A DNA stretch of 64,000 nt, from contig CAJXOS010000013.1 in the NCBI GenBank assembly GCA_913057725.1, forward strand, positions 1 to 64,000, written 5' to 3'. The position numbers and the translations under genes were made by a program. This stretch comes from an uncultured Lewinella sp. (GTDB lineage Bacteria > Bacteroidota > Bacteroidia > Chitinophagales > Saprospiraceae). Each line of letters starts with the position of its first letter. The first letter of the stretch is position 1. Of the stretch, positions 36,833 to 43,821 are shown one piece after another. The notes below the pieces were generated by a model. The model was given only the letters and a program-made list of their open reading frames with translations, did no database searches and was not told the origin of the DNA.

Positions 36833-39800
36833 ATGCGTGTTTTGTACTTGTTTAGTTTGTGTTGTTTGAGTGTTTCGCTTTTGGCTCAGAAGCCAGTCTT
36901 CGTTCCGGTAGACCCGGAAAACCGGCTTAGTACAGAAGAGGTTTTGCAATCAATTAATGCAGAGAATATTCCGCTGCCTAGTTATGACAGTCAGCGAGCG
37001 GCAAACTTCAATCCTCAAGCGCTTGCGTTGATTGCTACCAATGGTGTCATCAAACGCTATGAGGCTCGCCCAAATGCCCAGACGGGTTTGCCAGATTGGA
37101 TTCGCCTTTGGGGTCCAGGCTTAAATACGGGTGGCATGGATGACCAGCTGTCTGCTTGGCTCACTGCTCTTGGGCCAGCTTGGTCGGTTGATAAAACAGA
37201 TGAAGAATTTGAGGAAATTAAGGTTGATGTGGAAGGCGACGGCTTAGTACACGTCACCATGCAGCAACAATATCAGGGTGTACCTATCTATGGTAATGAG
37301 CTGAAGGCACACTTTAAAAACGACCGCTTATACTTATTGAATGGTCGTGTGACGCCCAGTCCAGATATCTCTACTCAGCCTACGCTTGCGGAGGAGGAAG
37401 CGGTGACTGTAGTCAAAAACGCCGTACAGCGTCATGCTCGCCTAAAGCATTTGCAGGAGTTCGAAATGCAACTGCTGGGAGAGGAGCAAATCCAGGAGGA
37501 ACTGGTCATTTATCATCAAGGTAATGCTTGGAATGATCCTGTTTTGGCTTATTCTATTACCATAGTTCCTAACCTGGCGGCACGCTGGCATTATATCATC
37601 GATGCACATACTGGTGCTATTTTGGATGAGTTAGATCACCTATGCCATGTACTTCCGCCACCGGAAGTGACTACAGCTTTGGATTTATTTGGCATCGGCC
37701 GTACGATTCATTCTTATGAAATTGGCGGTACGAATTTCCTCATTGATGCTTCGCGCCCAATGTTTAATGCCAGTAACTCCAACTTACCCAATGAGCCTGT
37801 AGGAGCAGTATGGACCATTAACGGCAACAACAACTCGCCTGCTAATGACGATTTTTCTGCCACTCACAATACGTCTTCGGGCAACTTCTGGAATGATCCA
37901 TTAGCAGTAAGTGCCCACTATAATGCCGGAGAGTCTTATCAATATTTCCTGGAGACTTTCAACCGCAATTCCATTAATGGCCAAGGTGGAACGGTGATTT
38001 CTTTGATTAATATTACGGAAGATGATGGCAGCGATATGGACAATGCTTTCTGGAATGGCCAGGCCATGTTTTATGGCAACGGTAACCAGGCCTTCAGTTC
38101 ACCGCTGGCAAAGTCATTGGATGTAGCCGGGCACGAAATTTCACACGGTGTAATCCAGAACACAGCTAACCTCGAGTATCGGGGCGAGTCTGGAGCCCTG
38201 AACGAATCCTTTGCGGATATCTTCGGTGCATTGATCGAAGGCGATGGCTGGCAGATGGGTGAAGATGTAGTCAATCCAGCAGTCTTCCCATCCGGTGCTT
38301 TGCGCGATTTGTCTAACCCAAATAACGGCGGGAACAGCCTCGGCGATCCCGGTTGGCAACCCGCCCACACAGATGAACAGTTCTTCGGAACGGCCGATAA
38401 TGGTGGTGTACACATCAATAGTGGCATCCCGAACCGGGCATTTTTCCTTTTTGCATCGAGCGTAGGAACTGATAAGGCGGAGCAAGTCTTCTACCGTGCG
38501 CTGACGACTTACCTAACCCGTTCTTCTCAGTTTCTGGATTTAAGAGCGGCAGTAGCCCAAGCAGCTGATGACCTCTACGGGCAGGCAGAAATCAACGCCG
38601 CCATTGATGCCTTTAATGCGGTAGGAATTGGCAGCGGCGGTGGCGGCGGCACCGTGGATGATAACCAAGAGGATATAGAGGTTAATCCTGGCCGAGAATT
38701 CGTCTTGTATACAGAAGGAAATAATAACAACCTCTATTTACGGGATGCGGAAACACTCGAGTTTTTCGCGAACCCACTGTCCAATAATGATCCTATCAGT
38801 AAGCCTAGCATTACAGATGATGGTACCGTAATCGTCTTTGTAAATAGCAGCAACCAGATACAGGTCATCCAAATTGATTGGTCAGGTCCTTCCGCAAGTA
38901 GTTCCTTGTTAAGTGATAATCCAGTTTGGCGTAATGCTGCTATCTCCCGCGATGGTGGCCGCTTGGCAGCACTAACGACGGATAATGATAATCGGGTTTT
39001 TGTTTTTGACCTGAGTAACGGCGGGATAGGAAATACCTATGAGTTATATAACCCTACAACTTCTTCGGATGGCGCTACGACCGGCGATGTACAGTACGCC
39101 GATGTTTTAGAGTGGGACCTATCAGGAGAATTCCTCGTGTACGATGCCTTTAACGTCATTCAAAACCAGAATGGTTCTACGATCGACTACTGGGATATTG
39201 GATTTATTGAGGTATGGAATAATAGTACCAACGATTTTGGTGATGGCTTCATTAGTAAACTCTTTTCGAACTTGCCAGAAAATAGTAGTGTAGGGAACCC
39301 TACTTTTTCTAAGAATTCACCTTATATCCTAGCCTTAGATTTCCTCCCTGGTGATGGTAGCGCCTTCTTGTATGGTGTGAACATTGAAACAGGTGATGTA
39401 GGCGAGATATTCGAGAACGGGCGCCTCAATTATCCTAATTACAGTGTCCAGGACAATCAAATAATATTTGATGCGGAAGAAGATACCTTCGGTGATAAAA
39501 TCATCGGCATCGTTGATCTGAATGAAGACAAAATAACCCCTAGTAGTAATGCCTTTATTTTCATCGAAAATGGCTTTGCGGGCGCCCGCTGGGGCGGCTG
39601 GTTCGCTATTGGCGAGCGCGATCTGGTAGGCACCTTGGATCCAGCCTCTGATGATGCCTGGGCGCAAGCCTTCCCAACGGTGAGTAACGGGCAGCTGACA
39701 CTGACCTGGGAATTGACGAAGTCTAGTGATGTACAGCTGGAGGTGCTGGATATGCTAGGGCGTTCTTTGCACCAAAGGTCATGGAGGCAAAGCTTCGGTG

Positions 39801-39901
39801 CAGTACAAGAGAACTTGGAGCTTGATCTTCCTGCGGGTAGTTATCTCCTGCAATTACGAGCTGGCCAGCGACAGTTTAGCCAACTGATAGTGGTAGAGTA
39901 G
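36833..39901 (+). CDS. M4-family (thermolysin-like) metalloprotease with C-terminal propeller and T9SS tail
   Basis: A secreted zinc protease of 1022 residues. A signal peptide and an FTP/PepSY-type propeptide occupy about residues 1-260. The M4 catalytic domain follows, with zinc motif H434-E-I-S-H438, the third ligand in GALNESFADIFG and the catalytic NGGVHINSGIPNRAF segment. A linker rich in Gly leads to a TolB/PD40-like beta-propeller (about 620-940). The last ~78 residues are a T9SS type A tail. It should degrade extracellular protein. It ends at a strong bidirectional terminator. Confidence 0.9.
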   Translation: MRVLYLFSLCCLSVSLLAQKPVFVPVDPENRLSTEEVLQSINAENIPLPSYDSQRAANFNPQALALIATNGVIKRYEARPNAQTGLPDWIRLWGPGLNTGGMDDQLSAWLTALGPAWSVDKTDEEFEEIKVDVEGDGLVHVTMQQQYQGVPIYGNELKAHFKNDRLYLLNGRVTPSPDISTQPTLAEEEAVTVVKNAVQRHARLKHLQEFEMQLLGEEQIQEELVIYHQGNAWNDPVLAYSITIVPNLAARWHYIIDAHTGAILDELDHLCHVLPPPEVTTALDLFGIGRTIHSYEIGGTNFLIDASRPMFNASNSNLPNEPVGAVWTINGNNNSPANDDFSATHNTSSGNFWNDPLAVSAHYNAGESYQYFLETFNRNSINGQGGTVISLINITEDDGSDMDNAFWNGQAMFYGNGNQAFSSPLAKSLDVAGHEISHGVIQNTANLEYRGESGALNESFADIFGALIEGDGWQMGEDVVNPAVFPSGALRDLSNPNNGGNSLGDPGWQPAHTDEQFFGTADNGGVHINSGIPNRAFFLFASSVGTDKAEQVFYRALTTYLTRSSQFLDLRAAVAQAADDLYGQAEINAAIDAFNAVGIGSGGGGGTVDDNQEDIEVNPGREFVLYTEGNNNNLYLRDAETLEFFANPLSNNDPISKPSITDDGTVIVFVNSSNQIQVIQIDWSGPSASSSLLSDNPVWRNAAISRDGGRLAALTTDNDNRVFVFDLSNGGIGNTYELYNPTTSSDGATTGDVQYADVLEWDLSGEFLVYDAFNVIQNQNGSTIDYWDIGFIEVWNNSTNDFGDGFISKLFSNLPENSSVGNPTFSKNSPYILALDFLPGDGSAFLYGVNIETGDVGEIFENGRLNYPNYSVQDNQIIFDAEEDTFGDKIIGIVDLNEDKITPSSNAFIFIENGFAGARWGGWFAIGERDLVGTLDPASDDAWAQAFPTVSNGQLTLTWELTKSSDVQLEVLDMLGRSLHQRSWRQSFGAVQENLELDLPAGSYLLQLRAGQRQFSQLIVVE

Positions 39902-39922
39902 ATATCAGAGTAGCACGTTATT

Positions 39923-39963
39923 CAAAAGGGGAGCAGAATAGATATCTGCTCCCCTTTTGTTTT
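39923..39963. terminator. Bidirectional terminator between the M4 protease and the PLP enzyme
   Basis: CAAAAGGGGAGCAGA at 39923-39937 pairs perfectly over 15 bases with TCTGCTCCCCTTTTG at 39945-39959. T-runs follow the stem in both directions, and the two genes converge here. Confidence 0.92.
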
Positions 39964-40894
39964 AACGCGAACGGTCCAGCCTACTGGCAAAAGCTTGTAA
40001 ACCTCCGGTATGTATGGCTACTACCTGACTTCCTTCCGGGAAATAGCCTTGCTCTAACAAATCATATAGGGCGAAGAAGAGTTTGCCAGTATAGATTGGT
40101 TCTAAGATGATACCGTGTTCATGGTGAAAATGCTGGATGAAGTTGTCTAAAGCCGGGCTCCGGCGGGCGTAGCCACCGTGGTGATAATCATCCAAAGTAG
40201 TCCATCTAGTAGCCGTTTCAGGAAGTTGCTCCAGATGCCTGTTGATTTCCTTCCTCATGAAATTACCCTTCAGAACACTTACACCGATGAGTTCGGCAGT
40301 GCCCGTTAGACCATTAATAAGTCCTGCCGCCGTACCACCTGTGCCACAAGCCACGGCCAGGTGGGTTGGCTGGGTGGGGTGTTCTGTTAGAATCTCCTGT
40401 GCCAATTGAGCGCATCCAGCGAAGGCATCTTTATTGGTGCCGCCCTCCGGTAAGATATAGGAAGGTCCGAAGCGTTCAGTTAAATTTTGGAGAAAGGTAG
40501 GGTCTTGCTTCTGGCGATAACTGCTGCGATCAATAAAGTGGAGCTGCATGCCGTTTTGCTGAGCTCGTTCCAAGGTAGGGTTCTGGACAGCTTCCTCACC
40601 CCGAACCACGCCAATAGTACGGAATCCAAAGTGACTCCCGGCACTGGCCACAGCAGCTAGATGATTGCTATAGGCGCCGCCAAAAGTGAGTAGTTGCTCA
40701 TATCCTTCTTCTCGTGCTCGTTGCAAGTTGTACTGCAGCTTACGCCATTTATTACCACAAAGCGGATCATTAGGGCTAGGAGCAAGCAGGTCATCGCGTT
40801 TGATCCACAGAGCCACATCACGTGCTTCCCAGCGCGGATCATCCAATCGCTGAAGAGGGGAGGGGAGGGGGTGTTGTAGATATTGCAACTTCAT
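39962..40894 (-). CDS. PLP-dependent ACC deaminase / D-cysteine desulfhydrase family protein
   Basis: From the ATG at 40894 the product has 310 residues, the usual length. PLP-binding features are a CGNKWRKLQYN motif near residues 46-56 containing the Schiff-base Lys, SNH in GGAYSNHLAAVAS, and a glycine-rich phosphate cup (CGTGGTAAGL). Members deaminate 1-aminocyclopropane-1-carboxylate or desulfhydrate D-cysteine; in Bacteroidota the true substrate is unknown, with desulfhydrase activity more probable. The frame's upstream extension to 40972 is rejected because it lacks family similarity. Confidence 0.87.
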   Translation of the reverse strand: MKLQYLQHPLPSPLQRLDDPRWEARDVALWIKRDDLLAPSPNDPLCGNKWRKLQYNLQRAREEGYEQLLTFGGAYSNHLAAVASAGSHFGFRTIGVVRGEEAVQNPTLERAQQNGMQLHFIDRSSYRQKQDPTFLQNLTERFGPSYILPEGGTNKDAFAGCAQLAQEILTEHPTQPTHLAVACGTGGTAAGLINGLTGTAELIGVSVLKGNFMRKEINRHLEQLPETATRWTTLDDYHHGGYARRSPALDNFIQHFHHEHGIILEPIYTGKLFFALYDLLEQGYFPEGSQVVAIHTGGLQAFASRLDRSR

Positions 40895-41154: not shown

Positions 41155-41847
41155 ATGCTGTCTAACTTAAAATTCCTTTTTGCCGCTCTACTATTGACCA
41201 CCGCTTTGGCCGTACAGGCTCAGGTAAGTGTGGGTGCACGGGTAGGCTATCAACTGAATAACGTATATACCACTGAGGGCTTGGGCGCAATCGCACCAAA
41301 CTTCCTCAATATAGATGAGGCCAGCTTCGGCCTTGTGACTGAAATTCCAATTGCGGGTGGCTTCAGTTTCCAGCCAGAATTGGGTTATTCTACTAAAGGC
41401 TTTGGTCTGAAAGAAGGTTTTGATGCCGATCTACTTGGTGTAAACCTACCAGTGAGTGCTCGTGCTGAAACACGGGTTCGCTACCTAGAGGTGCCACTTC
41501 TAGCAAAGTATAAGTTCGGTGAGGATGCCCTACAAGCTTACGTAGCGGCCGGTCCTACCTTCAGCTATGCGAATAAAGGACAAATTGATACCTATGCCAA
41601 TGTACTATTGGAAGTAGAACTAGGCAGTGTGCCTTTAAATCTGGATGCCATCAACTACGAGCGCTTCGATGTAGGAGCAACTATTGCCCTGGGTGCGCAG
41701 TACGACTTTGGTCCAGTGACAACGTTCGTCGATGCGCGCTATTACCGCGGCTTCTCGGAATTGTATGACATTCCATTGGTGAACGAAAAAGTACGCAACA
41801 AGGGCTACGGGTTTAACGTGGGTGTAATGGTACCTGTAGGCCAATAA
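41155..41847 (+). CDS. Porin-family outer-membrane beta-barrel protein
   Basis: 230 residues: signal peptide ending AVQAQ, then alternating beta-strands of an eight-stranded barrel in the style of OMP_b-brl_2 (VGARVGYQLNN, SFQPELGYSTKGFGL, LEVPLLAKYKF, AYVAAGPTFSY, GAQYDFG, final VGVMVPVG). Typical of small PorT/OmpW-like proteins in Bacteroidota. Ligand unknown. It has a long structured leader and its own terminator. Confidence 0.87.
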   Translation: MLSNLKFLFAALLLTTALAVQAQVSVGARVGYQLNNVYTTEGLGAIAPNFLNIDEASFGLVTEIPIAGGFSFQPELGYSTKGFGLKEGFDADLLGVNLPVSARAETRVRYLEVPLLAKYKFGEDALQAYVAAGPTFSYANKGQIDTYANVLLEVELGSVPLNLDAINYERFDVGATIALGAQYDFGPVTTFVDARYYRGFSELYDIPLVNEKVRNKGYGFNVGVMVPVGQ

Positions 41848-41919
41848 AAGATATCGTGGTTGACGATTGGAGCGGGGTGATTTTGAAATAATGCTCCGAT
41901 CAACTGAATCAACTTGTAG

Positions 41920-41948
41920 AGGTCGCTTCCATCAGGGAGCGACCTTTT
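41920..41948 (+). terminator. Terminator after the porin-family gene
   Basis: AGGTCGCTTCC at 41920-41930 pairs with GGGAGCGACCT at 41935-41945 (one G-T pair, ATCA loop), followed by TTTTG. Confidence 0.87.
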
Positions 41949-41996
41949 GTCATTTATTTGATTACAAAGTGAAGAATGTTGTAAAAAAATAATCTT

Positions 41997-42030
41997 TTTG
42001 ATTACAATTTGATTTTTTTGCGTATCTTTG
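41997..42030 (+). promoter_or_regulatory. Promoter of the candidate structured RNA
   Basis: TTTG at 41997-42000, a 22-base spacer (slightly long), then TATCTTTG at 42023-42030, an exact TAnnTTTG match. The region is very AT-rich. Transcription would begin near 42037. Confidence 0.55.
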
Positions 42031-42036
42031 AGTCAA

Positions 42037-42311
42037 CGAAGGAACAAAGCAGGAGAAAGAATTTTTATGGCTGATTTCTGCTGCTTTCGCTTCCACCCTA
42101 CATCGAGGTGGAAGCGGAACGGCTTTTGAACAGACGCACCAAATGAACACTTAAGACATAACAAACACCACTTGGGTGTTAAGCACCGCACGCGCTCCAT
42201 CTGATTACACCTTTACCTAAACCCTGGCAGCCGAAAGGCTGCCACTAGAAATTGACACTGGTTTTCGTTTTCGACCGATTCTCTGGTATACAGGAGAATC
42301 GGTTTCTTTTT
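42037..42311 (+). ncRNA. Candidate structured non-coding RNA, about 275 nt
   Basis: Between the promoter and a strong terminator there is no credible gene, but a chain of hairpins. (1) 42046-42058 pairs with 42075-42087, 13 bases with one mismatch. (2) Directly abutting it, 42088-42097 (CGCTTCCACC) pairs perfectly with 42107-42116. (3) AACACC at 42164-42169 pairs with GGTGTT at 42175-42180. (4) GGCAGCC at 42226-42232 pairs with GGCTGCC at 42237-42243 around a GAAA tetraloop. (5) The terminator ends it. A 20-codon frame at 42067-42129 is possible but unremarkable. It does not look like tmRNA, RNase P or SRP RNA. 6S-like or a new sRNA cannot be told apart by eye. Confidence 0.5.
42274..42311 (+). 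terminator. Terminator of the candidate RNA
   Basis: ACCGATTCTC at 42274-42283 pairs perfectly with GAGAATCGGT at 42294-42303, followed by TTCTTTTTT. Confidence 0.9.
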
Positions 42312-42332: not shown

Positions 42333-42377
42333 TAAAAATGGAAGCGCCCTCCGGATAATCAACTGGAGGGCGCTTCC
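42333..42377 (-). terminator. Terminator after the persulfide dioxygenase-rhodanese gene
   Basis: GGAAGCGCCCTCC at 42340-42352 pairs perfectly over 13 bases with GGAGGGCGCTTCC at 42365-42377. On the minus strand the stem is followed by ATTTTTA. Confidence 0.9.
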
Positions 42378-42399
42378 AAAATATCAGGGAATTGCTCCC

Positions 42400-43821
42400 T
42401 TAGTTTTCTGCACCTGTACTAGGGCAAACGAAAGTAGTAGTAGGTAACCCTTGCGGGTTAAAATTCGCAAAGTTCGCCTGCACGTTCACCAGGCCTTCAA
42501 ATCCACGCGCCTGCAATATCGATGCAGCCACGGTAGAGCGGTAACCGCTACGGCAGTGTAAGTAGTAGGCTTGGTCTCTATCGATTTCGTGCATGTGTGC
42601 ATTGATGAAATCCAGCGGCAGGTTTTGGCTTTCCTCCAGGTGCTCCGCTTCCCATTCGTTCGGCTTGCGTACATCGAGTACGGGGAGCTCGCCATTATCT
42701 TTTCGGAGATTCACAAATTCATCGATCCCAATGGTCTCAATCTGATCTACCTGATAGCCAGCAGCCTGCCAGGCCGCAAAGCCTCCTTCTAAGTAGCCAA
42801 GGGCATTATCATAACCAACACGAGCCAAACGTGTGACGGTCTCTTCTTCTCTACCTTCCGGAGCAATGATCAAAATGGGCTGCCGGAGGTCCTGAATGAG
42901 GGCGCCAACCCACGGAGCGAAGCTACCATCCAACCCAATGAAAATTGAATTAGGAACGAATCCTCGTACAAACTCTTCCTTTGAGCGTACATCCAATAAG
43001 AGCGCACCATGCTCATTGGCAACGGTTTCGAAAGCGGCAGGAGGAAGTGGGCGAGCTCCGCGCTCCATTACTTCGTTGATGGCTTCGTAACCTTGCTTGT
43101 TGAGCTTGGCATTTTTGGCAAAGTATTGTGGTGGAGGCAGTAGCCCGTCAGTAACCTCTGCGATGAATTCATCGCGAGTCATGTTGGCTCTTAAGGCGTA
43201 GTTCGTTTCTTTTTGCTGGCCTAGTGTGCTCCAGGTTTCCGAACTCATGTTCTTTCCGCAAGCCGATCCCGCACCGTGTGCAGGATAAACGATTACGTCA
43301 TCAGGCAAGGGCATGATTTTATTACGTAGGCTATCAAATAACCAGCCGGCAAGGTCTTCCTTGGTTAGGCTACCTTTTTTCTGTGCCAGATCAGGTCGGC
43401 CAACATCACCGATAAACAGGGTGTCGCCCGTGAAGATGGCGTGTTCCTTGCCTTGCTCATCAATGAGTAGGTAGGTGGTACTCTCAGGGGTGTGTCCTGG
43501 TGTGTGGAGTACTCTAATTTTGAGCTTCCCTAAGCTGAACTCCTCTCCATCCTTAGCAAGATGTTTTTCGTAAGCAGTCTCGGCTTCTGGGCCGTAGATG
43601 ATCTGTGCACCACTTTCTTTGGCCAAGTCTAGGTGGCCAGAGACAAAATCGGCGTGGAAGTGCGTTTCGAAAATATACTTGATCTGTGCATTCCGTGCTG
43701 TCGCACGGTCCAGATAGGGTGCTGTTTCACGTAGCGGATCAATTACAGCCGCTTCGCCTTCGCTTTCAATATAATAAGCTCCTTGGGCCAAACAGCCCGT
43801 ATAGATTTGTTCGATGTACAT
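42400..43821 (-). CDS. Metallo-beta-lactamase-fold persulfide dioxygenase with two rhodanese domains
   Basis: 473 residues. Residues 1-240 are a persulfide dioxygenase (ETHE1)-like MBL domain with metal motif H54-x-H56-x-D58 and H63, a LHTPGHTPES segment and a FTGDTLFIGDVGRPDL segment. Two rhodanese domains follow. The first (about 265-355) has lost its active-site Cys (APEGREE loop). The second (about 365-455) keeps Cys423 in YLHCRSGYRS. Fused proteins of this kind couple sulfane-sulfur transfer to oxidation of glutathione- or protein-bound persulfide to sulfite in the cytoplasm. A promoter and a terminator frame it as a single-gene unit. Confidence 0.92.
   Translation of the reverse strand: MYIEQIYTGCLAQGAYYIESEGEAAVIDPLRETAPYLDRATARNAQIKYIFETHFHADFVSGHLDLAKESGAQIIYGPEAETAYEKHLAKDGEEFSLGKLKIRVLHTPGHTPESTTYLLIDEQGKEHAIFTGDTLFIGDVGRPDLAQKKGSLTKEDLAGWLFDSLRNKIMPLPDDVIVYPAHGAGSACGKNMSSETWSTLGQQKETNYALRANMTRDEFIAEVTDGLLPPPQYFAKNAKLNKQGYEAINEVMERGARPLPPAAFETVANEHGALLLDVRSKEEFVRGFVPNSIFIGLDGSFAPWVGALIQDLRQPILIIAPEGREEETVTRLARVGYDNALGYLEGGFAAWQAAGYQVDQIETIGIDEFVNLRKDNGELPVLDVRKPNEWEAEHLEESQNLPLDFINAHMHEIDRDQAYYLHCRSGYRSTVAASILQARGFEGLVNVQANFANFNPQGLPTTTFVCPSTGAEN

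Follow-up and report, generated by a model that had tools for sequence, protein, structure and literature searches.

A predicted small RNA gene of the Lewinella group with a two-box promoter and a seed complementary to the start region of a glucosaminidase gene

Background

A gap between bacterial genes that carries several strong inverted repeats raises the question of whether an RNA is made from it and, if so, on what that RNA would act. Such a gap is found at positions 41997-42311 of the window, by which we mean the whole stretch of 64,000 nucleotides of an uncultured Lewinella sp. that was analysed. A preliminary description, made from the letters alone, had proposed that the gap encodes a structured RNA that stands alone and has a promoter and a terminator to itself. 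By comparing the window's genome (G000) with those of same-genus relatives (G001, G002 and G003) we find the complete unit, i.e. promoter, RNA and terminator, in all four genomes, as that proposal would have it, and judge from the sequences that a real sRNA gene very probably resides at this locus.

Results

A free-standing unit between two genes

Read from the sequence, the stretch 41997-42311 is a free-standing unit that consists of a promoter, about 275 nt and a terminator. The features of the locus are the following (window coordinates):

41155-41847, plus strand: outer-membrane beta-barrel gene (PF13568), the 5' neighbour of the RNA unit
41918-41947: terminator of the outer-membrane gene itself
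41957-41966, plus strand: distal promoter box TTTGATTACA, one of the tandem TTTGATTAYA boxes present in all four homologues
41997-42006, plus strand: proximal promoter box TTTGATTACA, its first four bases being the -33-like TTTG
42023-42030, plus strand: -7 box TATCTTTG, with TATCTTT invariant in all four homologues
42036-42311, plus strand: predicted sRNA transcript of about 275 nt, its start placed by way of the -7 box
42046-42087, plus strand: stem 1, specific to G000, its 16-nt loop containing most of the seed
42063-42076, plus strand: invariant seed block TTTTATGGCTGATT; the pairing with the glucosaminidase start spans 42062-42079 in G000
42080-42123, plus strand: core hairpin P3, 17 pairs, followed by TTTT (42124-42127)
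42164-42180, plus strand: 6-pair hairpin AACACC/GGTGTT, read in the sequence, specific to G000
42192-42203, plus strand: invariant block GCGCTCCATCTG, identical at 12 of 12 positions in three of three comparisons, 5' side of a proposed long-range helix
42226-42243, plus strand: GAAA-loop hairpin of 7 pairs (GGCAGCC-GAAA-GGCTGCC), specific to G000 and gapped in the other three genomes
42253-42269, plus strand: block TGACACTGGTTTTCGTT, conserved though less well in G003, which would form the 3' strand of the long-range helix
42273-42311, plus strand: intrinsic terminator with T-run, 12 pairs (stem 42273-42304), kept in all four genomes
42400-43821, minus strand: convergent metallo-beta-lactamase/rhodanese gene, the 3' neighbour of the RNA unit

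The roughly 275 nt between the -7 box and the terminator contain no plausible gene, in agreement with what had been stated before. Just 3' of the unit, at 42338-42378, lies a strong palindrome (GGAAGCGCCCTCC/GGAGGGCGCTTCC) that is probably the terminator of the rhodanese gene and that attracts sub-threshold matches to microRNA families in a permissive Rfam search. Judged by the rhodanese gene, the closest genome with a species name among those compared is that of Lewinella cohaerens. The same genome as the window (G000) has a second copy of the outer-membrane gene, more diverged at 34% identity (G000:C118:16267-16908).

The promoter that had been described, TTTG combined with TATCTTTG, is indeed found at 41997 and 42023-42030; the -7 consensus of Bacteroides is given as TAnnTTTG in PMC7366714. 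Two copies of TTTGATTACA (at 41957 and 41997) stand against a chance expectation of 0.2 in the window. In all four homologues the TTTGATTAYA boxes lie 40 nt apart, start to start, and the start of the proximal box precedes TATCTTT by 26 nt. The composite pattern TTTGATTAYA-N25..50-TTTGATTAYA occurs once per whole genome in each of the four, always at the RNA locus, the count for the backwards-written control pattern being zero.

Fold of the predicted transcript

The minimum free energy of the predicted transcript is -87.4 kcal/mol (z -5.4 against 200 shuffles), and the RNAs of the three relatives likewise fold strongly, with z -4.7, -5.9 and -4.5. For the whole stretch 41997-42311 z amounts to -4.4 and for its opposite strand to -4.8; since the opposite strand folds too, as the stems predict, the direction of the RNA rests on the promoter and the terminator. 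In a fold scan of the window (232 stretches, plus strand only, 15 shuffles each) the RNA stretch ranks first, with z -6.5 against a median of -0.5, and it is also first among the 13 mostly non-coding stretches, where the second and third overlap it, which bears out the earlier remark that its folding exceeds that of the neighbourhood. The second-lowest value of the 232 (z -4.63) belongs to 39745-40020, around the end of the gene at 36833-39901.

All of the stems that had been described are present, and the 10-pair stem (42088-42097 with 42107-42116, the core of P3), the 6-pair hairpin and the 7-pair hairpin with its GAAA tetraloop are seen in the sequence as claimed. The first stem had been counted as 13 pairs; its arms (42046-42058 with 42075-42087) allow at most 12 pairs plus one mismatch in the sequence and form 10 in the predicted fold. 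The terminator with its T-run is there as well, with a stem of 12 pairs instead of 10. The TTTT behind P3 is possibly an internal terminator, and a transcript that stopped there would measure about 90 nt. A terminal helix between the 5' and 3' ends appeared in single folds and was dropped, its position shifting from genome to genome.

Conservation and covariation

Conservation was counted over four sequences, so that all counts given here are small. All four genomes retain the 10-pair hairpin and the terminator; neither stem 1 nor the hairpins with 6 pairs and with the GAAA loop align in the three relatives, and these three elements are not conserved, so that the set of stems put forward in the preliminary description is retained in part. 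In P3, 4 of the 17 pairs are changed on both sides and 95.6% of the cells remain paired, its covariation score is reached by 0 of 500 shuffles, and slid partners are only 35-53% paired. The terminator shows double changes in 2 of its 12 pairs. For the 3' half, the covariation score is reached by 49 of 500 shuffles and one slid version equals its double changes, and the covariation there is therefore weak; the search for covarying stems that had been suggested comes out positive for P3 and weak for the 3' half.

Apart from the hairpins, the seed core UUUUAUGGCUGAUU is invariant in all four genomes, which also have in common the block GCGCUCCAUCUG and, less so in G003, UGACACUGGUUUUCGUU. RNAalifold proposes a long-range helix (42189-42199 with 42259-42270) that would join the second and third blocks; its changes are one-sided only.

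Distribution

A DNA search of 60 relatives returned credible matches in G001, G002 and G003 only (best E 8e-9, 6e-7 and 1e-5, respectively). At E<=1 matches were obtained in 52 of the 60; those outside the genus, among the matches listed, are at most about 45 bases long with E no better than 0.005, and were rejected. In all three relatives the outer-membrane gene is again the upstream neighbour of the RNA, whose parts come in the same order. The downstream gene differs, being SCO1/SenC in G002 and G003, the rhodanese gene in G000 and, in G001, a gene that no Pfam family matches, and the combination of one upstream gene with differing downstream genes argues that the RNA is not a leader.

Of 396 genomes sampled from the order, a covariance model of the core (R1) matched 4, all from the same genus and each with a single match. 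In a sample of the family, 5 of 199 genomes were matched at E<=0.05, G002 not being matched there; two of these matches (G096 and G211, 29 bits) are weak and were set aside as motif fragments. With a model of the 3' half (R2), matches at E<=0.01 were obtained in 8 of 398 family genomes, four of them strong, all of this genus, and four weak (G286, G190, G249 and G110, 27-34 bits), the latter being read as terminators behind open frames. Both scans used stricter filters, so distant forms may escape them. In G071 (L106 1412-1491) the outer-membrane gene is followed by 80 bases and SCO1/SenC, with no RNA unit in between, and taken together with the distribution of R1 and R2 this makes the unit look genus-specific as far as the sequences go. 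The G071 arrangement is the empty counterpart of the locus in G002 and G003. Phage records gave no match to 41997-42311.

In a second genus (G017, G220 and G268) a short promoter-terminator unit lies behind the same outer-membrane gene and shares AACACCCAAAAAA with two of the four RNAs. The score of its local alignment in G220 with G001 is reached by 3 of 300 shuffles and that with the RNA of the window by 122 of 300; given this marginal alignment, the three genomes were left out of the RNA count. One of the three, G017, has a hairpin-forming insert of about 120 nt in the unit (L091 2466-2585; compare L109 and L111).

A candidate target: the start region of a glucosaminidase gene

We scanned the four genomes for AATCAGCCATAAAA, the reverse complement of the seed, allowing at most one mismatch. 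It was found at 37 places, of which 4 are the RNA itself and 33 lie elsewhere; the backwards-written control, which is not dinucleotide-matched, was found at 6. Loci were compared for 26 of the 33 places, the other 7, all in G001, being left out. Among these 26 loci the sole group of orthologues hit at the same place in three genomes (G000, G001 and G002) has the site across one start codon; two further similarities are weaker.

The gene concerned encodes a protein of 248 aa with a Glucosaminidase domain (PF01832, E 1e-11), preceded by a hydrophobic segment resembling a membrane anchor; the protein is likely a peptidoglycan hydrolase. In G000 it adjoins a divergent purD. As no AATCAGCCATAAAA site was listed for it in G003, the gene was sought there via its neighbours and was found by synteny beside purD, 56% identical. 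Its start reads ATATCAGCC-ATG-AAAAAC, in which the core of the site is kept (ATCAGCC-ATG-AAAAA is retained) with one more mismatch at the edge.

Compared over the four RNA-carrying genomes, UUUUAUGGCUGAUU falls in every case within a complementary run at the start codon region of this one orthologous gene. The contiguous pairing amounts to 18, 17, 16 and 14 (including 1, 2, 2 and 1 G-U) and the duplex energies to -25.7, -22.1, -21.2 and -18.8 kcal/mol. In G003, where the ranking covers 1127 start regions in about 1.67 of 5.6 Mb, the target ranks third by duplex energy and is among the 4 start regions that reach at least 14 contiguous pairs; none of 1000 shuffled seeds reaches 14 pairs on it. 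AAAGAAATCAGCCATGAAAAATGAA is common to G000, G001 and G002, while further upstream the sequence of G000 can no longer be aligned with that of the other two.

Start regions can, of course, be conserved for other reasons. With 7 identical bases immediately upstream of the ATG, this pair comes third among 30 start pairs, itself counted; the set seems to contain shadow frames, and the two higher-ranked pairs look like such frames. The orthologous start regions in the window and the nearby G001 and G002 stretches numbered 2, too few to serve as a background. No compensatory changes between seed and target are seen in the four genomes. Within the full-length RNA, the seed is predicted to be unpaired with a mean probability of 0.71, 0.29, 0.35 and 0.16 (G000 to G003), so that in three of the four RNAs the mostly paired seed would need opening or another fold. 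The complement of GCGCTCCATCTG (an 11-mer) was found at 12 places, 4 of them the RNA, with no gene shared among the other 8, and is no commoner than its backwards control (25 places).

Alternative explanations

In Rfam 15 no family exceeds its gathering threshold anywhere in the 64 kb. The search, proposed beforehand, agrees with the earlier impression that tmRNA, RNase P and SRP signatures are absent; the best sub-threshold match near the stretch scores 25.4 where 60 is needed and covers 41914-42020, mostly outside the RNA. The same description had considered a divergent 6S-like RNA. Such an RNA would sequester RNA polymerase, and it would be free-standing and structured, as this one is; that neither Rfam model finds a 6S RNA in the genome (RF00013 and RF01685, 6S-Flavo: no match at E<=1 in the whole of G000) can be counted in favour of this reading. 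Among 14 control genomes RF00013 matches 6 (4 over the cut-off) and RF01685 a single one, not over the cut-off, so that the negative result for RF01685 carries little weight. 6S RNA is one long rod with a central bubble that mimics an open promoter. A rod of this type is absent from the predicted folds of all four RNAs, which are branched instead, and the finding that, of 396 genomes sampled from the order, only those of one genus have the RNA speaks against 6S as well; we regard this identification as very improbable. We find it just as hard to believe that the RNA is a leader or dual-function RNA from which the frame at 42067 (MAD...) is translated. Although ATGGCTGATT is invariant in all four genomes, the frame has 20, 13, 25 and 13 codons, only M-A-D is common to all, and the changes in the hairpin keep its pairing; a conserved small protein at 42067, which had been named as a reason to abandon the RNA, was looked for in the four genomes, and the candidate peptide was rejected.

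That there is no RNA gene at all, the locus being just a series of intergenic terminators along with AT-rich sequence that resembles a promoter, would fit with the TTTT at the end of the core hairpin and with the 5' hairpin of the three relatives, which, with the A-run before it, reads as a terminator on the other strand. It would account neither for invariant blocks that lie outside the terminators nor for a two-box promoter of fixed spacing that is found once per genome, and we consider it most unlikely. A weightier alternative is that the sRNA is genuine and structured and has its main function elsewhere, on another mRNA or a protein, the glucosaminidase match reflecting chance and the ordinary conservation of a start. 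The predicted pairing of the seed in three RNAs is in its favour, as are three other start regions of G003, among them that of a pyruvate kinase gene, that pair over 14-15, and the second invariant block, GCGCUCCAUCUG, which the glucosaminidase target leaves unexplained; yet the complementarity falls at the same start-codon position in four of four genomes, in one of which the gene was reached via synteny. We think this reading possible, if on the whole doubtful.

Discussion

What the sequences show is a conserved unit with its hairpin and a complementarity that is likewise conserved, and our proposal for a repressing sRNA departs from these observations. A promoter of the Bacteroidota type, preceded by the two TTTGATTAYA boxes, would make a transcript of about 275 nt ended by the intrinsic terminator; the boxes would bind a regulator, and the promoter would be a regulated one. 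The invariant seed UUUUAUGGCUGAUU, next to the conserved hairpin, would pair in the cell with the start region AUCAGCC-AUG-AAA of the glucosaminidase mRNA, which is encoded elsewhere, and the RNA would be trans-acting. The pairing would keep the ribosome off the start codon region, and blocked ribosome binding would leave the cell with less of the cell-wall enzyme whenever the sRNA promoter is active. For this mechanism as a whole, i.e. an sRNA gene whose seed pairs with the glucosaminidase start and represses the initiation of translation, we see the prospects of being right and of being wrong as evenly balanced. More tentative still is the specific form in which a lineage-specific two-box sRNA, with an AUG-bearing seed between hairpins, is dedicated to silencing a membrane-anchored peptidoglycan hydrolase. 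If true, the Lewinella group would control the remodelling of its cell wall at a post-transcriptional level.

The suggestion of a new RNA class goes too far, in that the family is outside Rfam but its kind is known in Bacteroidota: it is a genus-restricted intergenic sRNA. Features of trans-acting sRNAs of this phylum are present in the form of an own promoter and intrinsic terminator, as read in the sequence, and of a conserved seed complementary to a start region (14-18 pairs in four of four genomes). The likenesses to known RNAs given here are likenesses of kind, drawn from published descriptions. GibS (BTnc035) of Bacteroides thetaiotaomicron, presented in PMC7366714 as the first Bacteroidetes trans-encoded noncoding RNA with target mRNAs identified genome-wide, is described there as pairing across start codons, with repression, in a genus that has no obvious Hfq or ProQ according to the same source. 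Like GibS as so described, the RNA is intergenic and genus-conserved, has its own start site and terminator, carries a conserved seed and pairs at a start codon, the start site and the pairing being predictions in the present case. GibS is, however, portrayed as largely unstructured with the seed in its 5' portion and as having metabolic targets (PMC7366714), whereas the Lewinella-group RNA is strongly structured and its proposed target is a cell-wall hydrolase. Rfp18 of Flavobacterium psychrophilum, as reported in PMC9723704, is similarly independent and genus-conserved, with a strong predicted fold and mRNA targets predicted by pairing; unlike the target proposed here, those of Rfp18 are given as mostly metalloprotease mRNAs. 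6S-Flavo RNA (RF01685; as described in PMC2864571) and 6S RNA (RF00013) are likewise free-standing and structured, and the RNA differs from them in the want of a covariance-model match and in its branched folds.

Among the papers listed in our literature searches, none deals with a small RNA from Lewinella or the Saprospiraceae, which is no proof of absence from print. A concrete, testable target site for an sRNA family beyond those of Bacteroides and Flavobacterium would show how common it is in the phylum for a start codon to be occluded, and would connect this mode of control with the remodelling of the cell wall. A second candidate site is seen in G003, where 15 contiguous bases at the start of the pyruvate kinase gene (L246 1562-2995, minus strand) can pair with the seed, several of them as G-U; judged by this pairing, the gene is possibly a further target.
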